From: Desulfovibrio sp. Huiquan2017
Lineage (GTDB): Bacteria; Desulfobacterota; Desulfovibrionia; Desulfovibrionales; Desulfovibrionaceae
Length of the DNA: 64,000 bases
Direction of reading: 5' to 3'
Assembly (NCBI RefSeq): GCF_017351175.1
Contig: NZ_JAFMPN010000005.1
Location: forward strand, 62,001-126,000
Shown: piece after piece, positions 3,031-25,028 of the stretch
Layout of the letters: the number at the start of each line of letters is the position of its first letter
Position numbering within the stretch: the first letter of the stretch is position 1
Translations under genes and position numbers: made by a program
Notes under the pieces: model-generated
Told to the model about the DNA's origin: nothing
The model's database searches: none
What the model saw: the letters and a program-made list of their open reading frames with translations, nothing else

Positions 3031-3318
3031 ATGAAAAAAGTGATTCTTGTATGTGCAATGATGGTGATGATGTCTTCACTGGCTTTTGCTGGTCAGGCTC
3101 AAACCGGTGATATTACGATCGATAGCAACGTCGGCGAGATCAACACCATGGCAACCGGTGACGACTCTTCAGCCACAGCGAACATACACTCGGTCGAAGT
3201 TACTAACGGCAAGACCGGCGACATTACGATCAAAGGCAAGGCCAAAAACGTCACTACAAGTGCAACCAAGGGCGGTATCGCCACAACTAACATCGGCAGT
3301 GTCAAGGTAGGCGACTAA
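3031..3318 (+). CDS. Exported two-repeat protein, candidate amyloid/fibre subunit
   Basis: A 95-residue exported protein. Residues 1-20 are a classic signal peptide ending SLAFA. The mature part is two tandem repeats of about 35 residues, each starting TGDITI and ending NIHSV or NIGSV, with alternating polar, Gly, Thr, Ala and Asn residues. The second repeat ends at the C-terminus with VKVGD. Short secreted Gly/Asn/Thr repeat proteins beside a CsgG-like gene are typical of functional amyloid subunits such as CsgA, but the repeat is not the curli Gln/Asn repeat. The fibre role is inferred. First gene of the operon; GAGGAG precedes the ATG. The stop overlaps the next start (TAATG). Confidence 0.72.
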   Translation: MKKVILVCAMMVMMSSLAFAGQAQTGDITIDSNVGEINTMATGDDSSATANIHSVEVTNGKTGDITIKGKAKNVTTSATKGGIATTNIGSVKVGD

Positions 3319-3623
3319 TGATATTTCGCTTTGTGAAACATATCTTGCGAGCAGCGCTCCTTGGAGCGCTGCTTTCTTGTGCATGTTTTGCGGGCGACTT
3401 TTCCGACGGAATAGATAGCGGGGACGGCTTTCAGTTTGGGAACGACCTCAAAGGCAAGCCAAATACTAGTTTTCACAAGGCCAAGGCCAGAAGCAGGATG
3501 AAAGCCGGAGAGGCGATCACTGGCGATGAAGGCGATGTGAACTATGGTAGTGTGGTTGACAGTGAAGTCCATGGTGATGTCACGATAATAATCGAAGAGG
3601 GTGACACCACCATCATTAAATAA
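3318..3623 (+). CDS. Small exported protein with degenerate GDVTI repeat, candidate minor subunit
   Basis: A 101-residue exported protein with a signal peptide (about residues 1-25, cleavage near CACFAG). The mature chain is charged in the middle (KAKARSRMKAGE) and ends with GSVVDSEVHGDVTIIIEEG, which resembles one arm of the repeat in the preceding gene. It could be a nucleator or minor fibre subunit, as CsgB or HfaA are in known systems; this is inferred from position and the shared GSV/GDVTI signature. Its start overlaps the upstream stop by one base, so the two are probably translationally coupled. Confidence 0.65.
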   Translation: MIFRFVKHILRAALLGALLSCACFAGDFSDGIDSGDGFQFGNDLKGKPNTSFHKAKARSRMKAGEAITGDEGDVNYGSVVDSEVHGDVTIIIEEGDTTIIK

Positions 3624-3633
3624 AGGTTGCTCA

Positions 3634-5160
3634 ATGCGCTCATTCGGCATTCTTCTGGTTTTGGTTGCGTTGCTATCTGTTGGGGGGTGCAACAACAAGG
3701 TTGTTCAGGTTGATTTACCCAAGGAACCGCCGCAGGCACAGGTGTCGGATTACGGTGGTGCGCTGGTCAAGCTGGGGCGGTTGACCAAGCTACTGCGCAC
3801 CCAGCCGGTTAAGGTACAGACTGTAGGCGTCGTAGACGATACAGGTGTTTCGCAAGCTACCGGTGGCGAAATCCCCTTTGACGTCACTGAAATGATCAAA
3901 AGTGCGGTCAATCGTATTGGCGGGAAGGTCACCTTTGTGCCGTACGATCCTGTTTTTCTCAAAAATCAGGCTGCTCTCAAATTTACCTCGCTTCGCAACA
4001 AGACCCGACCGGATGTTGTCCTGCATGGCGGCATCACGGAATACGATCGTGCTTTGGAGGTCGTGAACGACAGCGCCGATTTTGGCGGAGATTTTGGTGC
4101 GGGGAAAAATTCCCTTGGGATTGATGCCGGAAAAAGCTCTGCTTCATCCACGTCGCGAATCACTCTGGACATCAACATGATGGATTTCGAGACTATGGCG
4201 ATGGTTCCGCAAGTCCAGGCAGTCAATTCAATCCGAGTCTACAAGGGAATGAATGAAGCTGAACTGGGATTTTCCATAATGGGCGCATCATTTGGCCTGT
4301 CTGGATCCGTCAAAAAAATCCAGGGGCATCACGCAGCAATCAGAACACTCATTGATTTGAGTGTCCTGGAGGTGATCGGCAAGTATTTGAACATCCCCTA
4401 CTGGAAATGCATTGGCCCCGACATCCCGGCGGACCAGCTGGTCCTGGAACGCATCAAAGAAGAGTACAGCCAGGCGAGCGGACAACGCAAAATCCTGATG
4501 ATCCAAAAGCTGTTGAGTGTATATGGTATCAACCTTTCGCTGACAGGCAAGCTCGACAACAATACCGTCAACGCCCTGTATAGCTATAAGGATGCGTATG
4601 GTGTTAAGAGTGATACCCTGAATGCCGATTTCTACGAAAGACTTTTTCTCGACATGCCGGTCTTCACCCGATCCAAGATCAAGCAGCAGATGGCATCTGC
4701 AAAACAGGTCAGCATCGCCAATCACCCCCAGATCGCATCTGCGCCCTCCCTCCAGATTCAAGTGCAGGCCATGAAAAAGCGATATCGAAAGGGTGAGGCG
4801 GTCCAGATACAGTTCGACGGTAATCAGGATTTTTACGGTAAACTGTTTTATGTAATGGCGGATGGTGGTGTAGCACAACTCCTACCCAATGCTCTGCGAA
4901 ACGAGAGCCGTTTTCAAGGGGGGAAAAAGTACACCGTTCCCAACAATGATGACAATTTCGCTTTGAACGTCACCCCCCCACTGGGAACGGAGAAAATCAT
5001 CCTTTTTGCCAGCCCGGAGCCTCTGCCGAACCTTCCCATGAAGGCAACCCCAGACGGCTTGGGGTATTTTGAAATGCCTTTGGCGGAGATTGCCAAAGAG
5101 CTGCATGCGAAATCTTCCCAGTTGACGATATCGACATGGACCATTGAAACCCTTCCCTAA
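3634..5160 (+). CDS. CsgG/HfaB-like outer-membrane lipoprotein with PG-binding and DUF4384-like domains
   Basis: A 508-residue lipoprotein, with signal peptide and lipobox LSVGGC (lipidated Cys19). Residues about 40-260 resemble the CsgG/HfaB family: GGITEYDR, then SRITLDINMMDFETM, and a C-terminal helical segment. CsgG-family proteins form the outer-membrane ring that exports amyloid subunits. Residues about 285-345 look like a peptidoglycan-binding-1 domain (IQKLLSVYG, TGKLDNNTVNAL), and about 370-470 like DUF4384 (FYGKLFYVMADGGVAQLLPN). Known CsgG is about 277 residues, so this is a long multidomain form. The ATG at 3634 has AAAGG eight bases upstream. It lies between the repeat proteins and an OmpA-like gene, which supports secretion and wall anchoring. 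Confidence 0.78.
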   Translation: MRSFGILLVLVALLSVGGCNNKVVQVDLPKEPPQAQVSDYGGALVKLGRLTKLLRTQPVKVQTVGVVDDTGVSQATGGEIPFDVTEMIKSAVNRIGGKVTFVPYDPVFLKNQAALKFTSLRNKTRPDVVLHGGITEYDRALEVVNDSADFGGDFGAGKNSLGIDAGKSSASSTSRITLDINMMDFETMAMVPQVQAVNSIRVYKGMNEAELGFSIMGASFGLSGSVKKIQGHHAAIRTLIDLSVLEVIGKYLNIPYWKCIGPDIPADQLVLERIKEEYSQASGQRKILMIQKLLSVYGINLSLTGKLDNNTVNALYSYKDAYGVKSDTLNADFYERLFLDMPVFTRSKIKQQMASAKQVSIANHPQIASAPSLQIQVQAMKKRYRKGEAVQIQFDGNQDFYGKLFYVMADGGVAQLLPNALRNESRFQGGKKYTVPNNDDNFALNVTPPLGTEKIILFASPEPLPNLPMKATPDGLGYFEMPLAEIAKELHAKSSQLTISTWTIETLP

Positions 5161-5183
5161 GCGAATACACTAAGGAACTTGAT

Positions 5184-5747
5184 ATGATAAATAGAATTCT
5201 CTCAGTCGTGGCTGTCATCCTTGCCGTCAGCTTTCCTGCCTGGTCTGAAGACTCCGTCAATTTCATGAACAAAATCCCCACCAGCGATGAACTTGTTGAA
5301 GCTCTGGCAGAACCCGAAATTGAGAAGACTCCCCGGATTCGCGGTATCCAGCTACGCAAGAAAGGGGCTACGGCGAGCGTTGCCCCTCAGGCTCCCCCAA
5401 AAACCGCACGGGTCATCCTTGACATAAAATTCGAGTACGACTCCTACCGCCTGACTGCCAAGGCCAAGAAAACGTTGGATTCTCTGGGAAAAGCCCTGAA
5501 TTCCGACAAGCTCCAGAACAATAACTTCATACTTGAAGGGCATACGGATGCCACCGGAAACGATGCATACAACATGCAACTTTCAAAACGCCGTGCCGAA
5601 GCTGCGTCCCAATATCTCCAAACTGTCTGCAACGTAAATGGCAGCCGCCTCGTCACCAAGGGCCTCGGTGAGAGACGCCCGCTGGACAAAGCTGACCCTG
5701 AATCCGGCTCAAACAGGCGGGTAGAGGTGGTAAATGTCGCTGAATAG
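5184..5747 (+). CDS. OmpA-family peptidoglycan-associated protein
   Basis: A 187-residue exported protein: signal peptide (about 1-21, ending PAWS), a Pro-rich linker, then an OmpA C-terminal domain (about 75-187). The domain shows the usual FEYDSYRL start, the LEGHTDATG motif, the NMQLSKRRAEAASQYL helix and the RRVEVV end. Such domains bind diaminopimelate in peptidoglycan non-covalently. No beta-barrel is present, so it is probably a periplasmic or lipid-free wall anchor. A good ribosome site (AAGGA) precedes the ATG. It probably tethers the adjacent CsgG-like exporter or fibre base to the wall; this role is inferred. Confidence 0.85.
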   Translation: MINRILSVVAVILAVSFPAWSEDSVNFMNKIPTSDELVEALAEPEIEKTPRIRGIQLRKKGATASVAPQAPPKTARVILDIKFEYDSYRLTAKAKKTLDSLGKALNSDKLQNNNFILEGHTDATGNDAYNMQLSKRRAEAASQYLQTVCNVNGSRLVTKGLGERRPLDKADPESGSNRRVEVVNVAE

Positions 5748-7275
5748 GAACCCCAAAGCGCCCAACCTGCTCTGTGCATGTGTAATTTGCATCATTGGTT
5801 TACTCACCTTTTCTGCAAACTCCCACGCTGCGCCAGAAGACTATATTGAACGATACACGCGGCGTACTGAGTATAAGACCCTTGAGATTGGAGACAAGTT
5901 GGTACCCCACCATATGGTTATTCCCAGCTTGCACTACGAGAACAAGTTTGGGGGAACTGTTCAGGACGATTTAAAGAACTACGACGAACGCGTAGAAGCA
6001 TACTCTAGATCCTTTGCCACCTATGCCCTCAACAATAACGTGAAGTCCGACGTGGACTTTTTGGCCAATGTCAAGACGACGCTCGACAGCGTTGGAGCTG
6101 CAACGGACGTCACTGAAAAAATGGTAAATACATTGGGTATTGTTGCCCGAGGGGCTGACCTTGCTACCCAATCAAAGATACTGAACACCCTGAAAGCTAC
6201 ATACCACTTTGAAATTGTAGGAGAAATAGGGGGGCACGCCGAAGTCGTAGGAGACCTTGTCGATATTGCGGACAAAGTCGTTTTGTTTGCCGACGTTATG
6301 CTGGAGGCCAAGAAGGCGTCGGATCGATCAAGAGATCAGGAGATCACACAGCTTGAAACCATCCAGCAACGGATGCTGGAATCCGGGGTCTCAGATACTG
6401 CAGCTTTGGACGGCATTGAGGCAGCCTTGAAAAAACTTCAAGAAGACAAAGGGTATGCTGATGCCGTCGTCAACGAATTGCAGGAGCGAAAGCATGAACT
6501 GGCAGGTGAAATCATGAAGTCAGGCGTGGATGTTAAAATTGGCGCCATGGCTTCAGCCAACATATCCGCTTACATAGTAGGGACAGCTTCCGTCTCGACC
6601 CTAGGGGCGGGTTTTCTTATTTCAGGAGCAGCTATGATTGCCAAGGACGGAATAAGTTCATGGGCCGCCGGAGGCCGCTTCAAGGAACTCGAAAAGCAGG
6701 CAAGCTGTTTGGCAAATCTTGACCAATACCTCAGGAAGTCCGATCCTACCTGGAGTGCTTCCCTCGATCAATACAAGCTGGCTCACGCGTACCTCAGCAT
6801 CCAACTTGAGATGGCACAGATACATGAAAACGAAATGGGAAAAATTGAAAAATGGACAGGAAGCTTCGACCCGTCAGTGATTGCTTTGCTGGAGCAGGAC
6901 CTGTCATTTCTGGCAACTATGATTGCAAGCCTGGAAAGCTCTCTTCCCGTGGAGGGACTGATCGCCCTTCCAGAGGCCTCCCTTCCCGAGAACTACCAAC
7001 CAACCGATCCTTCGATAGGGAATTCTGGGCTTTACTCCTCTAGCAGTTCTCCAAATCTCGGAGACATCACTATCGATTCCAAAGTCGACGACGTGACCGT
7101 CATCAACAAAACCCGGGCTGACCTTGAGGTGAATATCCATTCCATTGAAGCACATGGCAATGCGAAGTCAGGCGATATAACCCTTAAAGGCCGTGGCAAC
7201 AATATCACCGTCATCAAGAAGTCTCGTCAGAGTGAAGCAGAAGTCAATGTAGGATCTGTAGTAGTGGGTGACTAG
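5734..7275 (+). CDS. Large exported helical protein with C-terminal fibre-type repeats
   Basis: A 513-residue protein with a signal peptide (about 1-32, ending NSHAAP). The body is mostly helical and coiled-coil-like, with a Gly/Ala hydrophobic segment near residues 275-310 (ASVSTLGAGFLISGAAMIA) that could insert into a membrane. The last 70 residues carry the same two repeats as the protein at 3031: LGDITIDS...VNIHSIEA, then SGDITLKG...VNVGSVVVGD. This suggests it co-assembles with, or caps, the same fibre. The helical body recalls pore-forming or adhesin stalk proteins, but I recognise no family. It overlaps the OmpA-like gene by 14 bases; GAGGTGG lies before its ATG. Confidence 0.72.
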   Translation: MSLNRNPKAPNLLCACVICIIGLLTFSANSHAAPEDYIERYTRRTEYKTLEIGDKLVPHHMVIPSLHYENKFGGTVQDDLKNYDERVEAYSRSFATYALNNNVKSDVDFLANVKTTLDSVGAATDVTEKMVNTLGIVARGADLATQSKILNTLKATYHFEIVGEIGGHAEVVGDLVDIADKVVLFADVMLEAKKASDRSRDQEITQLETIQQRMLESGVSDTAALDGIEAALKKLQEDKGYADAVVNELQERKHELAGEIMKSGVDVKIGAMASANISAYIVGTASVSTLGAGFLISGAAMIAKDGISSWAAGGRFKELEKQASCLANLDQYLRKSDPTWSASLDQYKLAHAYLSIQLEMAQIHENEMGKIEKWTGSFDPSVIALLEQDLSFLATMIASLESSLPVEGLIALPEASLPENYQPTDPSIGNSGLYSSSSSPNLGDITIDSKVDDVTVINKTRADLEVNIHSIEAHGNAKSGDITLKGRGNNITVIKKSRQSEAEVNVGSVVVGD

Positions 7276-7309
7276 CTTGACGTTCTTCAAGCAGATCAGG
7301 GGCGGGCTT

Positions 7310-7804
7310 ATGCAGGCTTTCTGTTTCTGGCTGGTTGCGTCAGCCGTTCTGCTTCTTCCAAGTCCTTCTATCGCAGAGTCAATTCTGGATATTCTTCCCG
7401 GCATGCCTATGCCTGCGCTGAATGAACTGCGCAGCGCAACATGCGTAGAGATCAGGACCTATTCCGCAGACAAGTTCCCGCAGGTGCCAGGGCCGGAAAC
7501 CACAGTGACCGTGTTTCGCTGCGCAGAAAGGCAGTTAGCCTTGTTTCAATTCATCAACTTGAACGTCTATGCGGTTGCCTCCAAAGACAGAAATGGCATG
7601 ATAGAGTCGTGCGTCGATGAGGACTCCCTAGGACTTTGCACACGCTTGGTCCAGGAAGATGAGGAGTTTGAGGTCGATTTCGCTGCGTACGACGTTTCTA
7701 CACAGCCTTTTGAAGCGTATGACATCAATATTCTCAAGACACCTCAGCCGGAAGGCATGACCATACACAAGGCGCCAACGGATTTCTCGGGAGAGCCGCA
7801 ATGA
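7310..7804 (+). CDS. Exported hypothetical protein of the repeat-protein operon
   Basis: A 164-residue exported protein with a signal peptide (about 1-22, ending SIAES). The mature part contains five Cys (ATCVEI, FRCAER, ESCVDE, LGLCTR and one near the signal), so disulfides are likely. No family recognised. The ATG at 7310 is preferred to the GTG at 7268 because AGGGGCGG lies six bases before it and the signal peptide then starts normally. It overlaps the next gene by four bases (ATGA), which indicates coupling. It may be a periplasmic chaperone or accessory factor, comparable in position to CsgE/CsgF or HfaD; this is inferred from context only. Confidence 0.6.
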   Translation: MQAFCFWLVASAVLLLPSPSIAESILDILPGMPMPALNELRSATCVEIRTYSADKFPQVPGPETTVTVFRCAERQLALFQFINLNVYAVASKDRNGMIESCVDEDSLGLCTRLVQEDEEFEVDFAAYDVSTQPFEAYDINILKTPQPEGMTIHKAPTDFSGEPQ

Positions 7805-8094
7805 GGATCGTTTCCCTGACGCTTTTCACGCTCCTTCTTTCATCATCCATGGGACTCTGCGCCAGTATCAATAATTCCGATTTTGCCGAAAATGATGAGA
7901 CCGCGGCGGTCGAGAACTCCGGTGTATTGGCCCAAGACAGAGCTCCAGAAATGCATAAGATATCAAAAGAAGCATTCATCGCCAAAAAACATGGGCGGGA
8001 CGTTATCATCAAACAGACATCCACGAATGTTTTTCAGCATTCCGGTGGGAGAGGCGGCGACGCCCAGAATAACATCGGAAAGATGAAACGCTAA
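7801..8094 (+). CDS. Small exported protein with one C-terminal repeat arm
   Basis: A 97-residue exported protein with a signal peptide (about 1-21). Its C-terminal 35 residues (RDVIIKQTSTNV, then GGDAQNNIGKM) follow the same layout as the GDITIKGKAKNV...NIGSV repeat of the first gene in the operon, so it is the fourth repeat-bearing secreted product. It is the last gene before a long intergenic hairpin. The link to the fibre is inferred from this resemblance. Confidence 0.6.
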   Translation: MRIVSLTLFTLLLSSSMGLCASINNSDFAENDETAAVENSGVLAQDRAPEMHKISKEAFIAKKHGRDVIIKQTSTNVFQHSGGRGGDAQNNIGKMKR

Positions 8095-8372: not shown

Positions 8373-11234
8373 TTACTCGGCGTTGGTCAGCACAAAGTCA
8401 TTGCCTCTGTGGTAGAATGTAGGCTGCTGCTCCATCCCCCATACTTTCGAACTGAGAGCAGGAACCCCCTTGGTTACGTACTCGCCAACCTCCACGAGGC
8501 TTACCTGCTTGTCTGACGCGATATTATCGGCTTTGCCCTTTAATCCGTCGACCAGGACATATGTAAATAGACCATGTCCTTTGTACCCTTCCAAGGCGTT
8601 GCCCTGCGAAGAGGCAGCAGTCAGTACAGCGCGCCCGGTCGCTCTGTTCAATCGTCCCGTCGCCGCCTTCATTGCGAACTCAAAATCCTTGCCAACAAAT
8701 GCCCCGGATTGACAGGTATCGAGGATTATGAGGCTTTCGCGAGCAGGGACGCTGAGTAGTGCCTGATTCAGCAGTTCCTGATTGAGCGCTTGTTGAAGAA
8801 TGGATTGTTCACTTACGGTTTCCAATTCGCTTGGCAGGAAATGATATTTGCTGTTCAATGTCAGCCCATGGCCGCTAAGATAGAGGACAAAGCAATCCTC
8901 GGGTTTCGCCTTCTTTCCTATGGATTCAATAGCGTTGATGATACTGCTGCGTGTCGCCTTTCTGTTTTCGACGTTTTCGACAAACACATTGGTAAAGCTT
9001 TCATGAGCGCCTTTTCTGAGGGCGCTAGAAAGATAGCGGGCATCGTTGACGGCATTTTGCAAGGTGAGTTCTTTTGCAAGGTATGCATCGACGCCCACGG
9101 CCAGAATATACAGGTTTCGTTTTTGGACATACACGTTGTTTTTGAGGGTGGCAGTGGCGGTGACGGATTCAATACCGCTTTCAATCGAAAAGCTGCGAAC
9201 TTCGACAGTATTTCGCCCAGGGCTGGCAACAAAAGCCCGCTCCAGAGCGTACTGTGCGCCAATCCGCGCCGCAGAGGAAGGCGAGCCGTCTTCCGCAACC
9301 TTGGTGCCGTTGATGTAATATGAAATCGGACCGATCCCGCCGCCCTTGTCAGTGGCAGTAACGCGAGCCTGAATTATTCCATCTTCAATCGTACATGCAA
9401 TAGCAATCTTGGGCGGGGCACCTTTATCAATGAGGTTTATGATGGAGCCGGACTCCTTCTTGGCCTGGGCGATGAGGTTCTCATAGGTGCCCATGAGACG
9501 ATATTGCACGAGATCTGGGCGATAGAAGGTGTCATAAAAGCGGTCTATGCTGTAAAATTTCGCTTGTTTGCCCGCACCTTGATTTACATGGAAGCCGACG
9601 AGGGACTCGCCTCCCGGCGAATGGTCGAAGAAGCCTTCTGGCGTCCACATAATCCAGCGTTTTTTATCAGGATGGATGAAGCAGCTCAAGATGAGGGAGC
9701 CTGTTTTCGCATTGTTGAATCGTATACACCCATCAGGATATACCGTTACAATTTTGTTGCCGTTGTCTATTGGAACGATGCTCAATACCTGGCTTAAGGT
9801 GAAGTCAATCCATCTGAGTTTGGCTTCGGGAGTATAGCAGATTATCATCATGTGCGTTCCAACGACGGTATCGCCGTTTGGAAGATGGCTGTAACTGGTA
9901 ACGTATGAGTTAAAGGGAATCCTGACACGTTTTCCATTGATAATGGGAGAACGGGTTTTCTTCATTTCCACTTTCAACGATGCAGTGGCATGTGATGTAT
10001 CAGGCTTGTTGCTCAGATTGGGATTTGGCCCGGTTGAAACAAGGCGCCTCTCCAAATCGACGATGACGCCTTGACCATTGTCAGTAGGCAGGAAGACAGT
10101 CCGTCCATCCGATGAAGTAGAAAGCTCCAGCCTATTCACTTCCCCTTCAACATAAGTAATCAACGACGGCAGTACCCGATGGTATCGAATTTTATCATCG
10201 TCAAGGAAATAGAAGCCGTTTGGCGTTATCACGAGATGGCCGCCTTCAATGTAGAATGCTTCCTCAAAGGCTTTATCGGTTACGTTGATTTCTTCAGGGA
10301 TATAGTTATTTTTCGGACTCATGGCGTAGATCTTGTCATACCTCAATCCGTACAACACCGGACCATCAAGCTTTTGACTCCAAGACAAACTTTCCCGCTT
10401 ATATTTTGATTCAATGTGGATTTTTGTTTTTCTCCCAGTCATTATATCGACGACATGTATATCATTGTCGAAGGTTGTATACGCTGCCTTTGCACCATCG
10501 GAAGAGATGGTGGCGTCATACATTTTTCCTTTTTTAAGATTCTCCTTGAAAATTGTACCGAATCTGTTGTCCAGCACAGTGTATCCGGTCTTGTAAAAAA
10601 CAAGCATGGAGTTGTTGTCAGCAAAGTGAATACCGTTGATGCTGTCGGGCATAATAACGCGTTTCTCAATCCTCAGCGTCTTCCTATTGACAATGACCAA
10701 AGTTCTGGATGCACCCACCACAAGGTGTTCACCTGACGGCGAAAATGCGGTTGCCGATATTGTGAATCCATGGGAGCTAAAAATCCCCGGCACTACGACT
10801 GAACCGACCATGTCACCGGTTTCAGCGGAGAAAACATATACAAAAAAGTTGCTGCCAATTGGGCCCATGTGCGGTGCGGCAACCATCTTGCCATCATCAG
10901 AGACGGAGGCACCTGCCATTAACCCGACAAGGCCCGCATTCATTTCCACCCTTATGGTGGATAACAAACGTCCAGTTGAGGCATTCCAAACCTTACATGT
11001 TTTATCTATCGAGCAGGAGACAAGGTATTTTTTATTGTTGCTGATGGCCGCACTATTAAGCAAACCGTTGTGCATCTCAGTATTCAACTTCATGAAAAGC
11101 GGGGTTGAAGATTTCCCGCTAATGATAGCACTGAGATCAAAAGACCCGGCTAAAGCCGTAATGGGCAATGATATTGTAACGACTATGAGTATAAAAAGAA
11201 AAACCAACCGACAATTATCTGTTCTAGTTGCCAA
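8373..11234 (-). CDS. Exported beta-propeller protein with C-terminal caspase-like (C14) domain
   Basis: A 953-residue exported protein. Residues 1-30 are a signal peptide (ITALAG). Residues about 50-560 form WD40-like or beta-propeller blades (CSIDKTCKVWNASTG, TAFSPSGEHLVVG) and end with MWTPEGFFDHSPGGESL, a segment typical of bacterial propeller-caspase proteins. An Ig-like region (about 605-695) follows, then a caspase fold (about 705-953) with catalytic His789 in YLSGHG and Cys841 in DTCQSG. Both residues are intact, so it is probably an active periplasmic or surface protease. It converges on the repeat-protein operon, and DUF4384-type domains, as in the CsgG-like lipoprotein, often accompany caspase genes. 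The substrate is unknown. Confidence 0.85.
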   Translation of the reverse strand: MATRTDNCRLVFLFILIVVTISLPITALAGSFDLSAIISGKSSTPLFMKLNTEMHNGLLNSAAISNNKKYLVSCSIDKTCKVWNASTGRLLSTIRVEMNAGLVGLMAGASVSDDGKMVAAPHMGPIGSNFFVYVFSAETGDMVGSVVVPGIFSSHGFTISATAFSPSGEHLVVGASRTLVIVNRKTLRIEKRVIMPDSINGIHFADNNSMLVFYKTGYTVLDNRFGTIFKENLKKGKMYDATISSDGAKAAYTTFDNDIHVVDIMTGRKTKIHIESKYKRESLSWSQKLDGPVLYGLRYDKIYAMSPKNNYIPEEINVTDKAFEEAFYIEGGHLVITPNGFYFLDDDKIRYHRVLPSLITYVEGEVNRLELSTSSDGRTVFLPTDNGQGVIVDLERRLVSTGPNPNLSNKPDTSHATASLKVEMKKTRSPIINGKRVRIPFNSYVTSYSHLPNGDTVVGTHMMIICYTPEAKLRWIDFTLSQVLSIVPIDNGNKIVTVYPDGCIRFNNAKTGSLILSCFIHPDKKRWIMWTPEGFFDHSPGGESLVGFHVNQGAGKQAKFYSIDRFYDTFYRPDLVQYRLMGTYENLIAQAKKESGSIINLIDKGAPPKIAIACTIEDGIIQARVTATDKGGGIGPISYYINGTKVAEDGSPSSAARIGAQYALERAFVASPGRNTVEVRSFSIESGIESVTATATLKNNVYVQKRNLYILAVGVDAYLAKELTLQNAVNDARYLSSALRKGAHESFTNVFVENVENRKATRSSIINAIESIGKKAKPEDCFVLYLSGHGLTLNSKYHFLPSELETVSEQSILQQALNQELLNQALLSVPARESLIILDTCQSGAFVGKDFEFAMKAATGRLNRATGRAVLTAASSQGNALEGYKGHGLFTYVLVDGLKGKADNIASDKQVSLVEVGEYVTKGVPALSSKVWGMEQQPTFYHRGNDFVLTNAE

Positions 11235-11309: not shown

Positions 11310-11885
11310 ATGGTGCGCGTATTCAAACTGGCCATTTTGGTGGTAACCATTACCCTGCTGACTGGGTGTGTCTCACGATATTCGACCAGCCGTTATGGAA
11401 ACAAAGTCGTTTTAAATGACAATGAATCAAAGGAGTCCGTAGTAACCCAAGTCGCGAATGCTCGCTTTGTGGGGCAGGCCGATCAGATAGTTTATGGCAT
11501 GCGCATGAAAACATATGTGTATGAACTGGGAAAAGATTGGATAGTCATAGGCACAGTCGACAAGGATGATTACCTCAGGTCTTCCATGCATCGAATGAGT
11601 CAGGACCCTGAGTTGGTGGAAGTTTTGGGGATCGAACAGTCTGACCTGAGTGTCAGGAATCTTCCCTCCATAGATAGATTGAAAGGTGGAGGCTGCGCCC
11701 TTGGCCTCAGCAGTATATCCACCTTGAATGATAAAGTCCTTTTAGCTATTTACGTAGATAATACCTTGCTCAATCTGCAGATGTGTAAAGAGGTTGAGGA
11801 TATCGAAGGTTTTTACGCACTGTATCCTGATATGGCTGAGCAGTTTGTCGCAAAGGCGTCTGAGGCAATCAAGATTACCCAATAA
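11310..11885 (+). CDS. Lipoprotein divergent from the caspase-like gene, unknown
   Basis: A 191-residue lipoprotein with signal peptide and lipobox LLTGC (Cys20). The mature part is a mixed alpha/beta domain with three further Cys (GGGCALG, LQMCKE and the lipid Cys), with no family recognised. CAAGGAG lies before the ATG. The 75-bp gap to the caspase-like gene on the other strand probably holds divergent promoters, so the two may be co-regulated and act together, for example as an outer-membrane partner or inhibitor. This is inferred from arrangement alone. Confidence 0.65.
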   Translation: MVRVFKLAILVVTITLLTGCVSRYSTSRYGNKVVLNDNESKESVVTQVANARFVGQADQIVYGMRMKTYVYELGKDWIVIGTVDKDDYLRSSMHRMSQDPELVEVLGIEQSDLSVRNLPSIDRLKGGGCALGLSSISTLNDKVLLAIYVDNTLLNLQMCKEVEDIEGFYALYPDMAEQFVAKASEAIKITQ

Positions 11886-13937: not shown

Positions 13938-14228
13938 ATGATTGAGGAGTCTGGGCAAAAGCAGTCCGACATTAAGGAGATTGGCGGGGTTATCTTCCAG
14001 CTTCAAGAAGGTATGTACGTGGCCGGCGGCACGGAGGATGCCGAATGTGTGATCTATGGCGACACCAGCCCCGAGGGCCAGGCCGGTCTGGAACTCTTCA
14101 AATTGTGGTGCGGCGAAAACAACGTTTACTACTACGGATGGCCTCATGAGAAATTCTTGGAGTCCGAAGCTATCGAACAAGCTCAGATCGGCGGCTACAG
14201 CGACCTTTTCTGGGAAGATTTGTCATAG
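13938..14228 (+). CDS. Hypothetical acidic protein, 96 residues
   Basis: A 96-residue acidic cytoplasmic protein of unknown function, rich in aromatic residues (VYYYGWPHEKF). The open frame extends to 13809, but that part reads through a terminator hairpin. The ATG at 13938, after AAGAG, is the likely start. The next small gene starts 12 bases after its stop, so they are probably one transcript. Confidence 0.55.
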   Translation: MIEESGQKQSDIKEIGGVIFQLQEGMYVAGGTEDAECVIYGDTSPEGQAGLELFKLWCGENNVYYYGWPHEKFLESEAIEQAQIGGYSDLFWEDLS

Positions 14229-14240
14229 GGGGGACGTGGC

Positions 14241-14372
14241 GTGTCTGAAAAGGAAAGTCTGCTGCGGATTGCTCGAAATCAGATCCGTACCATCAACGAA
14301 ATGCGGGCCAGAGTGGGTATGAAACCATTGGGAGATGTTCATGAGGCCCCCCGGTGGATACTTCAGTTGTAG
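14241..14372 (+). pseudogene. 5' part of a small gene split by the IS481-family element
   Basis: GTG start with AGGGGGG upstream; encodes 42 native residues (begins VSEKESLLRIARNQ). The reading frame then runs into the insertion sequence, whose first bases TGTAG supply the stop. Removing the element and one target-site copy joins 14241-14367 to 15585-15730 in frame, giving 273 bases and 90 residues. The restored protein is basic, helical and unrecognised. Confidence 0.75.
14361..14367 (+). repeat. Left target-site duplication of the IS element
   Basis: CTTCAGT immediately left of the element; the same seven bases are at 15578-15584. Preceding A residues on both sides would allow eight bases. 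Confidence 0.85.
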
Positions 14373-14395
14373 TGGTTCATACTTGATCTGACAGT
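14368..14395 (+). repeat. Left terminal inverted repeat of the IS element
   Basis: 28 bases starting TGTAGTGG and ending TTGATCTGACAGT. It matches the inverted right end at 22 of 28 positions, with the inner 13 identical. Confidence 0.85.
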
Positions 14396-14426
14396 CTGCC
14401 CTTTTGACGGAGCCTGAATTGTCAGA

Positions 14427-15466
14427 TTAGTTGAGCTTTGAAACGTGTTCCGTCCAGAGCTGCTTTCCGTCAATCATAGTTTCCATGGACGTTCGTCCGC
14501 AACACATGTTCCCCTGATGCGTCCGTTCCGAGTTGTATTCGCCAATCCATGCGTCAAGATCAGCCTGCAAAGAGCCCAATGAAGTGTAAAGGGTTCGCCG
14601 AAATGCGACCTGATAAAACTCATTGAGGATGGTCTTGTGAAAGCGCTCGCAGATGCCGTTGGTTTGCGGATGCCTGGCCTTCGTTTTCGTATGCTCGACG
14701 CCGCACACACCGAGAAAAAGCTCATAGTCGTGCTTCTCCACACTGCCACAGTATTCCGTGCCTCTATCCGTCAATATCCGCAGGATGCCCATGCCTTGCT
14801 CCTCGAAAAACGGCAGAACCTTGTCATTGAGCATGTCCGCGGCAGTAATCGGAGTCTTGGTCGTGTACAGTTTGGCCGCTGCCCATTTTGAATACGTGTC
14901 GACGAAGGTTTGCTGGTAAATGCGGCCAACGCCTTTGATCGTGCCGACGTAGAACGTGTCCTGGCTTCCAAGATATCCAGGATGTGCCGTCTCGATCTCG
15001 CCGTGGGCAAGATCGTCGTCCTTCTTTTTCTCAAGCGCCTGCACCTGGGCTTCGGTCAGAATCATTCCCGATTCTGCGGAGAGCTTTTCCAATGCTCGCA
15101 AACGCAGCTTGAAGTTGTGCAAATCGTGCCGAAGCCAGATCGACCGCACGCCGGAAGGCGAAACAAACGTCCCGAGCTTGCCGAGTTCGTTGGTGGCTCT
15201 GGTTTGTCCGTAAGCGGGAAAGTCGGTGGCATAGGCAACGACGGCATCTTCGATGGCCGGATCGACTCTATTTTTCAGATTCGGCTTGCGCCGGTTCTTG
15301 TCAAGCAGAGCTTCAACACCGCCGTCTTCCTTGGCGGCCTGATATCGATAAAAGGTGTCCCGAGAAGAGCCCATCAGCTTGCAGGCTTCGAGACGTTGCC
15401 GAGTTCTTCCGCCAGATTGAGCAGGCCGACCTTGTGTTTTATGACGTTGTGATTGAAACTGGACAT
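14427..15466 (-). pseudogene. IS481-family DDE transposase, frameshifted near the N-terminus
   Basis: The start ATG (15464-15466) follows AAGGAGAACCTC and encodes MSSFNHNVIKHKVGLLNLAEELGNVSK. At 15384-15388 the frame slips: AAG CCT GCA AGC TGA is read, where one extra base (AAG GCC TGC AAG CTG ATG) would continue into the long downstream frame SRDTFYRYQAAKED, which is intact to the stop at 14427. The intact part contains helix-turn-helix remnants, then the rve-type DDE core (HPGYLGSQDTFYVG, ILTDRGTEYCG, QTNGICERFHKTIL). A single-base deletion is the simplest account. No slippery heptamer is evident, so programmed frameshifting is unlikely. A sequencing error remains possible. Confidence 0.8.
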
Positions 15467-15533
15467 GAGGTTCTCCTTGAGCACAGGGCTCGGTTTGATG
15501 GTGTTCAACATTTCCATCAAAAGGGAGAACCTC
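15467..15533 (-). promoter_or_regulatory. Leader stem-loop that would hide the transposase ribosome site
   Basis: GAGGTTCTCC (15467-15476) pairs perfectly with GGAGAACCTC (15524-15533). Within it TTTGATGG (15494-15501) pairs with CCATCAAA (15514-15521). In a transcript entering from outside the element, the stem would cover the AAGGAGAACCTC just before the ATG. Similar read-through protection is known in other insertion sequences. Confidence 0.6.
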
Positions 15534-15549
15534 TCGTTTTTCAAGAGGA

Positions 15550-15577
15550 ACTGTCAGATCAAATCGAAACTACTTCA
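15550..15577 (-). repeat. Right terminal inverted repeat of the IS element
   Basis: On the minus strand it reads TGAAGTAG ... TTGATCTGACAGT. It mirrors the left end. Confidence 0.85.
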
Positions 15578-15584
15578 CTTCAGT
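15578..15584 (+). repeat. Right target-site duplication of the IS element
   Basis: CTTCAGT, identical to 14361-14367. Confidence 0.85.
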
Positions 15585-15730
15585 TTCGTTATCGAGTGTT
15601 TGACCACCAAACCGTCTGCACGGAAGCGGGCAGTCTGGGTGAAATTGTCAGTTGGCTCAAAGGTGTTGCTTTCGCAATGCGCCTTTCTTTGAAATGTCAT
15701 CAGGAACTTTTGCAAAAGGAGGCGGCTTAG
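15585..15730 (+). pseudogene. 3' part of the small gene split by the IS element
   Basis: Continues the frame from 14367 with FRYRVFDHQTVCTEAG, ending at a TAG at 15728-15730. Contains a GEIVSWLKGVAFAM segment. Without the 5' part it has no start codon of its own. Confidence 0.75.
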
Positions 15731-16143
15731 GTGATCAAGTCGGCCGTGGGTTTCTTGCTTATCTGCGGCCGCTTTTTTCATGGGTTGCCTGAGGTGATGA
15801 CAACTCTTTAATTTCCTTTATGAGGCCCCTATCTGACAAATCTCTTAAAAGATCCTTGTTTTTAGCGATGTAAAAAATGGCCGTTTTTGATCAAAATAGG
15901 CCATTTTTGCGTTTTTGAATCGTTTTCGCGTTTTGCGATCGAAACGCGGATTTCGGTCTATTTTGATTAAAAAACGCCATTCCATACCCACTTTCCCCCA
16001 CCCGGAACCGCATCGAGTAAAGGGGGGCGGCAATTTCCTTCCATTTTTTTTTGCTGATCCGATGCTCTTTTTTGCCGGAGCTGCGGTCCTTCGGCGAATG
16101 AGTAGGTAGGACCGCAAAAAAAAACGCGGCCAAGGAGAATCAA
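15731..16143. other. Non-coding gap with several inverted repeats
   Basis: A 413-bp gap. It contains a 10-bp-stem hairpin AAAAATGGCC/GGCCATTTTT (15873-15908), a 7-bp stem CGCGTTT/AAACGCG (15927-15948), a CCCCC...GGGGGG pair (15995-16027) and an 8-bp stem TGCGGTCC/GGACCGCA (16082-16116). No gene is evident. It could include an origin of transfer or a control region; I cannot say which. Confidence 0.4.
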
Positions 16144-16352
16144 ATGGCAAAGATCAGAAATGGCGGGATGGTTGTTGGCAAGGATGGGAAAAGCTGACCA
16201 GGTGCTACATCTGCGGTCAGCCGTACAGGGATTTGAACAAGCTCGACACGAAGACAGATGGCAAGGCCGGGGCCGAGATCGTCGAGGTGTGCGACAAGTG
16301 CGCTGTTCAGCTCCGACGGAACGCGAAGCGTAACGGCAAGGGAGGGAAGTAG
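16144..16352 (+). pseudogene. Small zinc-ribbon protein gene with a frameshift
   Basis: AAGGAG, then ATG at 16144 encodes MAKIRNGGMVVGKDGK before a TGA. One frame over, the sequence continues EKLTRCYICGQPYRDLNKL ... VEVCDKCAVQLRRNAKR to TAG at 16350-16352, with a CxxC...CxxC zinc-ribbon pattern and no start of its own. Adding one G to the GGG at about 16187-16189 would fuse both halves into a 69-residue protein. It may be a recent mutation, a sequencing error in a homopolymer, or less likely recoding. Confidence 0.5.
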
Positions 16353-16354
16353 GC

Positions 16355-16456
16355 ATGGCTATGCTCCCACCCGAGAGGCGTTGGAAGTGGCCATACGCAA
16401 TGGCCGACGAGATTGTGGCAACGGCCGCCGTCCGGAGGTTCCATGGGGCTTCTTGA
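16355..16456 (+). CDS. Possible 33-residue small protein
   Basis: Begins MAMLPPERRWKWPYAMAD two bases after the zinc-ribbon stop, with GGGAAG upstream; it overlaps the next small ORF by 14 bases. Spacing like that of tightly packed phage genes. Function unknown. Confidence 0.35.
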   Translation: MAMLPPERRWKWPYAMADEIVATAAVRRFHGAS

Positions 16457-16634
16457 CAGCCTCCTCACGATTCTCCGGCCATCCAATGTACAACCCAACC
16501 AAACACACGCCGCAATGCCACCAAGACGCGATGACCGGATGCTCCTCCGCGCCTTGGCGGCGTTCGCCGGTCGCCGCAACCAGGATCCACCGATGTTCGA
16601 CTGCAAGGCCGAACACCGTGGCGAACGGCGGTGA
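16443..16634 (+). CDS. Possible 63-residue basic small protein
   Basis: Begins MGLLDSLLTILRPSNVQPN and ends with an Arg-rich tail; one amphipathic N-terminal helix. It follows the previous ORF with a 14-base overlap. Unrecognised; a real gene is plausible but not certain. Confidence 0.35.
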   Translation: MGLLDSLLTILRPSNVQPNQTHAAMPPRRDDRMLLRALAAFAGRRNQDPPMFDCKAEHRGERR

Positions 16635-16651
16635 CACGACGCCCCATTTCT

Positions 16652-16717
16652 GCTGTTTCCCCCACGCTTCCCAATGGACATGGGAATACGACTATAGATG
16701 AAGGGGGCAGAGATCCT
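16652..16717 (+). repeat. Structured repeat unit 1 (two-layer hairpin)
   Basis: Outer arms CCCCC (16659-16663) and GGGGG (16703-16707). The inner 6-bp stem TTCCCA/TGGGAA (16668-16686) has a 7-base loop. It shares GCTGTTTCCCCCAC and GAAGGGGGCA with unit 2. Confidence 0.55.
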
Positions 16718-16755
16718 TGGCCCACCGCAGATGATCCTTTTTTCTTCTCGTTACG

Positions 16756-16821
16756 GCTGTTTCCCCCACTCCCTCTATGCCAGGGAGGACAAGAGACAAG
16801 AGTGAAGGGGGCAAAATTTCC
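16756..16821 (+). repeat. Structured repeat unit 2 (two-layer hairpin)
   Basis: Outer arms CCCCC (16763-16767) and GGGGG (16807-16811). The inner 6-bp stem CTCCCT/AGGGAG (16769-16787) also has a 7-base loop. The inner stem sequence differs from unit 1, but pairing is kept. A degenerate third copy without the inner stem is at 15991-16038. Confidence 0.55.
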
Positions 16822-16926
16822 TTTTTGATCCTTTTTCCTCGGAATCGCCTTCGCGGCGCTGATCCTTATTTCCTTATCCCGGAGACGGAGTGGACAGCCA
16901 ACGCAACTCCGAGCACAGTCTCGTAC

Positions 16927-23834: not shown

Positions 23835-25028
23835 ATGGCGATCAAGCGGCAAGTGGGGAAGAAAGAGACGCTGTATCACGTCTATTATCGACACCCGTAT
23901 CTGGACAAGACTGTCTACGAGCCGTTCGGACACGACGAGGATGCGGCCAAGAAACGCAATGCGGAAGTGAAATATTTGCTCAAGTACGACAGGGAGTCGT
24001 TCCTGCCGGAGCGGCATGTTGACGACACGGAGAAGACCGGGCCTACCGTCGACGACATACTGTTGCTGTACCTGCAGGATGTCGCCGCAAGAAAAAAGGG
24101 GCAGGATCTTGCGAAAGAGAACATGGCGACAACTCTGTCCCACCTGAAATTCGTCCGCCCAATCATCGGCCACATCCCTGTCTCCGAACTGACCAAGACA
24201 CACCTGCGGGAGGTGGTCGCAGAACTGCGGAAGCCGCATGTAATCGACATGACTTACACCAATGATGGCAAGGTCAAGAAGGTCAAGCGCGAGGTCAAGG
24301 GCAACTCCCAGACGACAATAAACAGGAAGGTCGGCATCGTCCAAAGCGCCCTAAATTGGGCCGAGGAGCAGGAGCTTATCGAGGAGAACCCGGTCTTCCG
24401 TTTTTCCGGGGCCAAGCGTGGGCCGAACAATAAACCAGCCCCGCCAACCGTCGAGGAGGCCAACCTCATCGTCGCTGCGGCCTCCGATCATGTCCGCCGC
24501 GCCGTTGTCCTCGGTGTCGGGACCGGGGCAAGAATGGGCAGGTCCGAGTTGCTGAAGGCGACATGGGCGGACGTGTCGTTCGAGCGCAGCTGCATCCGTA
24601 TCGCGTCGGCCGAGAAAAACAAGAACATCACGTATCGGGATATCCAGCTTAAGCCAAATGTAATGGATGCCTTGAGATACTGGCGCAAGAAAGACGCGGA
24701 CACCGGACACGTAGGTCACATCATCCACTGGCGCGGGAAACCGATCAAATCTCTCAAAACGGCTTGGTGGAAGACACTGGAACGTGCCGGGATCACTCGC
24801 CGCATCCGCCCATACGACTGCCGCCACCATTTCATAACAGAGGCCCTTCGCAAGGGGTGCGACCTCAAAGCCATATCAACGATCGCCGGTCACGCAGACC
24901 CAACCATGATCCTCAAGCATTACCAGGAGGTCGTCGAGGAGACCAAGGCGGCGGTCATCAACTCCACCTCGGAGCTGGAACTGCCGGACCTGGACACAGG
25001 CCCACAAGATCTCGCCAAAGCTAAATAG
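23835..25028 (+). CDS. Tyrosine site-specific recombinase (integrase)
   Basis: A 397-residue phage/ICE-type integrase. N-terminal arm-binding region (about 1-65), core-binding domain (about 70-190; ENMATTLSHLKFVRPIIG), then a catalytic domain: Arg233 in TGARMGRSELL, Lys near 264, box-II YDCRHHF with Arg330, His353 in AGHADP, nucleophile Tyr363 in ILKHYQEV. The usual box-II His is Tyr327, a change tolerated in some members. GAGGAGG precedes the ATG. It ends at a terminator 180 bases before an attachment-site copy, the normal order for tRNA-targeting integrases. Probably active on tRNA-Pro. Confidence 0.92.
   Translation: MAIKRQVGKKETLYHVYYRHPYLDKTVYEPFGHDEDAAKKRNAEVKYLLKYDRESFLPERHVDDTEKTGPTVDDILLLYLQDVAARKKGQDLAKENMATTLSHLKFVRPIIGHIPVSELTKTHLREVVAELRKPHVIDMTYTNDGKVKKVKREVKGNSQTTINRKVGIVQSALNWAEEQELIEENPVFRFSGAKRGPNNKPAPPTVEEANLIVAAASDHVRRAVVLGVGTGARMGRSELLKATWADVSFERSCIRIASAEKNKNITYRDIQLKPNVMDALRYWRKKDADTGHVGHIIHWRGKPIKSLKTAWWKTLERAGITRRIRPYDCRHHFITEALRKGCDLKAISTIAGHADPTMILKHYQEVVEETKAAVINSTSELELPDLDTGPQDLAKAK

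Follow-up and report, generated by a model that had tools for sequence, protein, structure and literature searches.

In curli biogenesis, the outer-membrane channel is formed by CsgG, and CsgF, which lines the upper part of this channel, connects it to CsgB (PMC7304575); the curli subunits are solenoids of stacked repeats (PMC10192328). The holdfast anchor HfaABD of Caulobacter also includes a CsgG-like protein, HfaB, which the surface proteins HfaA and HfaD require, and HfaA has been likened to the curlin CsgA (PMC6707917). Dueholm et al. 2012 (PMC3521004) report a single curli system in Desulfovibrionales and note that the Pfam CsgG family takes in many non-curli proteins, with curli accounting for 171 of 601 matches. 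Here we describe a seven-gene operon in a 64,000-nucleotide stretch of Desulfovibrio sp. Huiquan2017 (phylum Desulfobacterota), hereafter the window (contig C5, 62001–126000, of a 3.97-Mb genome in 48 contigs). The operon probably encodes a CsgG-type outer-membrane export system for a secreted family of ~36-residue repeats that is not curlin.

Seven co-directional plus-strand open reading frames (ORFs) span positions 3031–8094; neighbouring frames overlap by 1, 14 or 4 bases at three junctions and stand 10, 23 or 34 bases apart at the other three. An earlier note on this DNA, made from its letters alone, had described these as tightly spaced genes whose products are all exported. The ORFs lie as it described, and by eye genes 1, 2 and 4–7 begin with signal peptide-like N-termini and gene 3 with a lipobox. 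The features of the operon are as follows.

3031–3318, plus strand: gene 1, secreted 95-residue protein with a signal peptide and two repeats; candidate exported subunit.
3103–3213 and 3214–3315, plus strand: repeats R1 and R2 of gene 1, 37 and 34 residues, making up nearly the whole gene.
3318–3623, plus strand: gene 2, small secreted protein of 101 residues; candidate channel adaptor or nucleator.
3634–5160, plus strand: gene 3, lipoprotein of 508 residues.
About 3634–4416, plus strand: CsgG-superfamily domain of gene 3, by profile comparison.
About 4486–4653, plus strand: peptidoglycan-binding-like stretch of gene 3, by alignment with relatives.
4783–5022, plus strand: DUF4384 of gene 3 (Pfam, 3.1e-23).
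5184–5747, plus strand: gene 4, OmpA-family protein of 187 residues (Pfam OmpA, 6.8e-23).
5734–7275, plus strand: gene 5, large secreted protein of 513 residues with a two-repeat domain at its end (7054–7272).
7310–7804, plus strand: gene 6, small secreted protein of 164 residues, with an alternative GTG start at 7268.
7801–8094, plus strand: gene 7, small secreted protein of 97 residues with one degenerate repeat at its C-terminus.

Pfam matches above cut-off were limited to two of the seven proteins (DUF4384 in gene 3 and OmpA in gene 4), with a sub-threshold DUF2807 match in gene 1 (0.015). NCBIfam gave no over-cut-off name to any of the seven, and the best PHROGs match among the six proteins queried was 0.007. 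Predicted promoter and terminator sites (4 and 7) gave no signal against shuffle means of 5.7 and 6.7.

The domain carrying the GD(I/V)TI...N(I/V)GSV pattern consists of two repeats (~72 residues); it forms gene 1 and ends gene 5. No shuffle of 2,000 did as well as the comparison of R1 with R2 in gene 1, of R1 with R2 in gene 5, or of the gene 1 domain with that of gene 5. Gene 7 holds one degenerate copy, whose score against the gene 1 domain was reached by 4 of 2,000 shuffles. The repeat had been assigned to four genes (3031, 3318, 5734 and 7801); the assignment stands for genes 1, 5 and 7 and falls for gene 2, for which 1040 of 2,000 shuffles scored equally well. Some repeat proteins do give weak matches to the profile of the gene 2 family, the best being 9.5e-7 when summed over repeats. 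G006 (genomes and loci carry our own handles), a genome of the same genus, has two copies of the domain: one stands by itself, and the other forms the C-terminus of a large protein that resembles gene 5 in the repeat domain only. Seventeen columns are invariant across the four domain copies of the window and G006.

Repeats of this kind extend well beyond the genus. The best autocorrelation period was 35–39 residues in all 16 repeat proteins or domains, which were picked by eye; in 13 of them 0 or 1 of 500 shuffles reached the period score, and the signal was weak (34–52 of 500) for gene 1, the gene 5 end and the G006 C-terminal domain. Autocorrelation alone is therefore no proof of the window repeats (52/500 for gene 1, 37/500 for the gene 5 end). 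A broad profile built from the repeats of G484, G425 and G187, none close to the window, detected gene 1 (13.1 bits), a score that none of 100 shuffles equalled. It performed equally against shuffles for G006 (25.0 bits), G054 (31.5), G378b (27.1), G262 (15.4), G235 (19.0) and L014b (6.2), matched the gene 5 end weakly (6.5 bits, 1/100) and failed on the G006 C-terminal domain (10/100). A narrow, window-type profile detected both repeat proteins of L014 (0/100 shuffles) and merely hinted at G187, G262 and G378b. The loci thus share a kind of repeat, with homology at the sequence level supported for some of them.

Repeat number and protein context vary. One G425 protein has about seven repeats, and in G517 a 965-residue ORF (L093, 5114–8011) with ten overlapping repeat-profile matches lies upstream of an ordinary repeat gene. 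In G329, a FecR-domain protein (L060, 757–1704) ends in two repeats of the family, with the CsgG-like gene on another contig. The repeat profile had no match at E ≤ 1 in the Protein Data Bank (PDB), and Pfam returned no recurring family for the repeat proteins. Matches of one long G425 repeat protein over the cut-offs for an adaptor-complex subunit and the arginyl-tRNA synthetase N-terminus, two unrelated families, were taken as artefacts of its repetition.

By profile comparison, the first half of gene 3 belongs to the CsgG superfamily. A profile of 12 relatives aligned with full-length Escherichia coli CsgG at an hhalign probability of 93.5 over 229 columns; with the CsgG signal peptide removed, the probability was 62 over 200 columns, and none of 200 shuffles reached the score. 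A four-sequence profile gave a probability of 30. All five PDB matches at E ≤ 1 (177,635 sequences) were CsgG, the best at E 0.087. Sub-threshold Pfam CsgG matches were present in 8 of 14 CsgG-like proteins scanned, a set that included gene 3 and left out L041 and L043: G054 (4.1e-4), L014 (8.7e-4), G425 (0.0016), G492 (0.0017), Azospirillum (0.0062), G517 (0.037), G501 (0.058) and G329 (0.061). The CsgG-like lipoprotein proposed earlier thus holds up by its lipobox, judged by eye, and by the family profile, though gene 3 itself lacks a Pfam CsgG match. Behind the CsgG-like domain, PG_binding_1 exceeded its cut-off in G054 (1.4e-5) and Azospirillum (1.1e-11) and fell below it in G006, G378, G187 and G517; Pfam found no such match in gene 3. 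DUF4384 then follows in the window, G006, G054 and Azospirillum. A search of plasmids for relatives returned nine records, of which two Azospirillum matches reach the CsgG-like part (query residues 78–436 and 176–460) and the other seven fall within about 358–467, on the DUF4384 side; for the G425 protein there was one record.

The gene 2 family is conserved directly upstream of the CsgG-like gene. Among 16 CsgG-like loci read, the window included, a gene 2 found by profile adjoins the CsgG-like gene in 13. The profile was built from eleven sequences of ten of these loci, and it detected gene 2 in all three unused ones (L092, L093 and L094); it found no match in L041 or the Azospirillum locus, and L037 starts at a contig edge. 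In 12 of the 16 loci a repeat protein, recognized by profile or by eye and period, is encoded upstream of it on the same strand, at a distance of no more than about 3 kb. The order repeat, gene 2, CsgG-like gene holds in all three unused loci, with just the end of the repeat protein present in L094, at the contig start. L014 has repeat proteins 6–7 kb away from the CsgG-like gene, on both sides. Downstream of the CsgG-like gene, four loci (L038 4522–8031, L092 4307–7275, L093 10841–13199 and L094 2422–6357) encode a pair of secreted proteins, each with AGN at the start of its mature part, and three of the four add a short third secreted protein. A DUF2807-type protein is found in three of the four, as is a trypsin-PDZ-type protease, for which L093 was unread; the DUF2807 and protease of L038 were tested with Pfam, and the rest of these genes were judged by eye.

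We considered gene 2 as a CsgF homologue and rejected it: against an 11-sequence profile, mature CsgF was equalled by 157 of its 200 shuffles. A four-sequence profile had matched CsgF (pairwise E 0.006, probability 6), a match that vanished with 11 sequences, and Pfam gave gene 2 no match at E ≤ 1. Its mature N-terminus resembles the CsgF channel peptide by eye, and a role analogous to that of CsgF is possible. For gene 4, blastp identified an OmpA-type relative in the vicinity of the CsgG-like gene for G006, G054 and Azospirillum, with a weak one 7.6 kb away in L041 and none in the remaining loci searched. The earlier note's OmpA-like wall anchor is therefore an OmpA-family protein for which an anchoring role is plausible, and OmpA is not a constant part of these loci. 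G054 also encodes a relative of gene 6 (E 2.8e-11, small database), some 1.7 kb away from the second repeat protein of that genome. These two genes share a strand (L045, 2066–5155) with a third, whose product exceeds the cut-off for Pfam CsgG (3.4e-14); together they may make up another system of smaller size.

The repeat and the CsgG-like gene generally occur in the same genomes. Among 98 relatives of the window's genome, a full-length CsgG-like gene was present in three and the repeat in the same three; eight further genomes matched in the DUF4384 half only. This search used a single protein query, so divergent CsgG-like copies may be missed. In a draw of 395 genomes from the phylum, nine had the CsgG-like gene, eight the broad repeat and seven both, a count that is biased because six of the seven shared genomes contributed to the repeat profile. 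The eighth repeat match was ribosomal protein L21 (NCBIfam 6.4e-35, over cut-off) and was discarded. Among the CsgG-positive genomes outside the profile, G329 matched the repeat and G378 and G473 did not. In 104 relatives of G425, repeat and CsgG-like gene occurred in the same four genomes, three of which (G492, G501 and G517) were used in neither profile; leaving out G425 itself, this gives 3/3 versus 0/100 (Fisher 5.7e-6). About 74 of the 104 were already in the phylum draw, and among the 30 that were new by handle numbers, the cleanest test, the association was 3/3 versus 0/27 (Fisher 2.5e-4). In the phylum draw the narrow profile found, beside the window, marginal matches in G137 (0.004) and G238 (0.005). 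Had the repeat been widespread without a CsgG-like partner, the idea of a dedicated system would have suffered; instead, seven of the eight repeat genomes fall within the CsgG-like set, the eighth is the L21 match, and G137 is the sole real-looking exception.

The operon shares with curli a CsgG-superfamily lipoprotein, a secreted repeat protein beside it and a small secreted accessory gene by the ring gene. It differs in its repeat, about 36 residues versus 23 in curlin (PMC10192328), and in gene 3, whose 508 residues include C-terminal parts absent from the 277-residue CsgG. None of the seven proteins matched Pfam curlin, CsgE or CsgF at E ≤ 1, nor did the repeat proteins scanned match Curlin_rpt at that level. 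Curlin repeats exceeded the cut-off in 0 of 13 genomes, three of which had weak matches at E 0.4–0.6, bearing out the earlier view that this repeat is a different one. HfaABD was compared by description only. An Azospirillum ramasamyi plasmid protein, WP_111069504.1, has a sub-threshold CsgG-like domain, PG_binding_1 and DUF4384 in that order, with an OmpA gene next; its locus differs in that neither the repeat nor the gene 2 profile had a match over the 15 kb examined. Neither the repeat nor gene 2 is described in the text examined of PMC3521004, and searches of open-licence PMC papers listed none with a title or abstract opening that describes this system. CsgG-type export is known; the substrate repeat and the accessory gene appear new.

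The operon lies in a low-GC stretch (window positions 1–26000) that is probably an integrated island. GC content is 0.45–0.53 in the first 16 kb, 0.57 at 16–24 kb, 0.51 at 24–26 kb and 0.58–0.67 beyond. A mobile island would explain the presence of the operon in only 3 of 98 relatives. Other features of this stretch are listed here.

242–1579: weakly RepA-like gene (Pfam).
8373–11234, minus strand: WD40 and caspase-like protein (Pfam C14, 1.1e-14; start codon uncertain), 46.6% identical to a counterpart near the operon in G006.
11310–11885, plus strand: lipoprotein near the operon, 51.8% identical to its G006 counterpart.
14427–15374: transposase.
23835–25028: tyrosine integrase.

In G006 (L016), the WD40-caspase is joined by a second, TPR-caspase on the other side of the operon (6594–7823 and 13996–16872).

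Starting from the repeats, their wider family, the gene order, the co-occurrence and the CsgG homology of gene 3, all of which we regard as established, we infer ring formation, repeat export, stacking and docking, with the gene roles (channel, subunit, adaptor, anchor and cargo module) assigned by analogy with curli. Gene 3 lipoproteins would form a ring in the outer membrane, tied to the cell wall through the peptidoglycan-binding-like part and OmpA (gene 4). Gene 1 would cross the inner membrane, pass through the ring unfolded and stack outside as a short beta-solenoid subunit. Gene 2 would act at the channel as adaptor or nucleator, doing the job of CsgF or CsgB though not demonstrably homologous to them. 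Gene 5, and probably gene 7, would carry the repeat as a C-terminal module and be exported by, or dock onto, the same assembly. What results is probably a solenoid fibre or coat on the surface, and its cargo proteins would bear this module. Dedicated export of the repeat proteins seems to us likely; whether they make a surface polymer is evenly poised, and amyloid in the strict sense we consider rather doubtful.

Several observations weigh against CsgG-type export of a solenoid polymer. Gene 3 stays below the curated Pfam CsgG cut-off and gives no match even at E ≤ 10, and gene 2 resembles mature CsgF no better than shuffles do. Gene 1 has two repeats only, few for a fibre subunit. The broad profile fails on L014a (88/100 shuffles), G378a (2/100, with a negative score) and G473 (47/100) and gives no match in the genomes G378, G473 or that of L014; the narrow profile misses G484, G425a, G378a, G473 and G235. 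In G054, 17 kb separate the repeat gene from the CsgG-like gene, and in the 15 kb of the Azospirillum locus, which encodes a CsgG-like DUF4384 protein, neither the repeat nor gene 2 was matched. G137, from the window's family, encodes a secreted one-repeat protein (L034, 1324–1704; 1/2000 shuffles reach its score) and has no CsgG-like match, making it a genuine exception or a remnant. The AlphaFold2 models were poor: the gene 3 monomer (two alignment rows) reached a pLDDT of 30, and gene 1 (five alignment rows) 48, with eight short strands, four per repeat. That strand pattern would fit a solenoid, and both models are too poor to favour or oppose any fold.

The same components could build a coat or anchor that does not polymerise, comparable to HfaABD holding polysaccharide, in which the short repeat domains fold into closed solenoids that gene 2 and OmpA attach to the ring and that retain cargo proteins such as gene 5. 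The two-repeat limit of genes 1 and 5 and their G006 counterparts suits this arrangement, as do the recurrence of the domain as a C-terminal module on different proteins, the wall-binding-type matches in gene 3 relatives and the presence of OmpA. The many-repeat relatives, with about seven repeats in G425 and ten overlapping matches in the G517 frame, look like fibre subunits and speak against it; on balance we think it rather unlikely. Less probable again, and in our view unlikely, is that gene 3 is a periplasmic CsgG-superfamily lipoprotein that assembles or senses without forming a channel, the repeats reaching the surface by another route or staying periplasmic. Ring formation is our reconstruction, the Pfam CsgG family holds many non-curli proteins, as mentioned above, and DUF4384 in gene 3 and the peptidoglycan-binding matches in its relatives would fit such a lipoprotein. 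Against this, the CsgG alignment continues through the barrel-forming stretch of CsgG, and distant genomes have the repeat gene and the ring gene at one locus. Finally, the neighbouring WD40-caspase could be the centre of an anti-phage or stress system in which the exported proteins are sensors or effectors. G006 keeps it close to the operon and has another caspase besides, it matches a PADLOC caspase model (9.9e-18), and the operon shares its low-GC stretch with an integrase. Among 17 comparison stretches, however, blastp found the WD40-caspase in G006 only and its caspase part in the Azospirillum locus, and no operon protein matched PADLOC at E ≤ 0.01 except OmpA, against the MotB-type ZorB; we regard this explanation as very improbable.

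CsgG-type export of a non-curlin repeat family therefore remains the reading we prefer. Going further, we tentatively propose, as a reading rather less likely than not, a new class of CsgG-exported extracellular filament built of ~36-residue beta-solenoid repeats, with gene 2 as its own adaptor. It would be found in several families of the window's phylum and also in Campylobacterales, and its two-repeat domain would double as a C-terminal tag by which diverse cargo proteins plug into the filament. If this is true, the C-terminal module would be usable for protein display, and a second natural family of proteins that may self-assemble into solenoid fibres would open to structural work. The recurrent three-gene core would offer a simple minimal system, and CsgG-type export would be a general platform for different repeat substrates rather than for curlin only.

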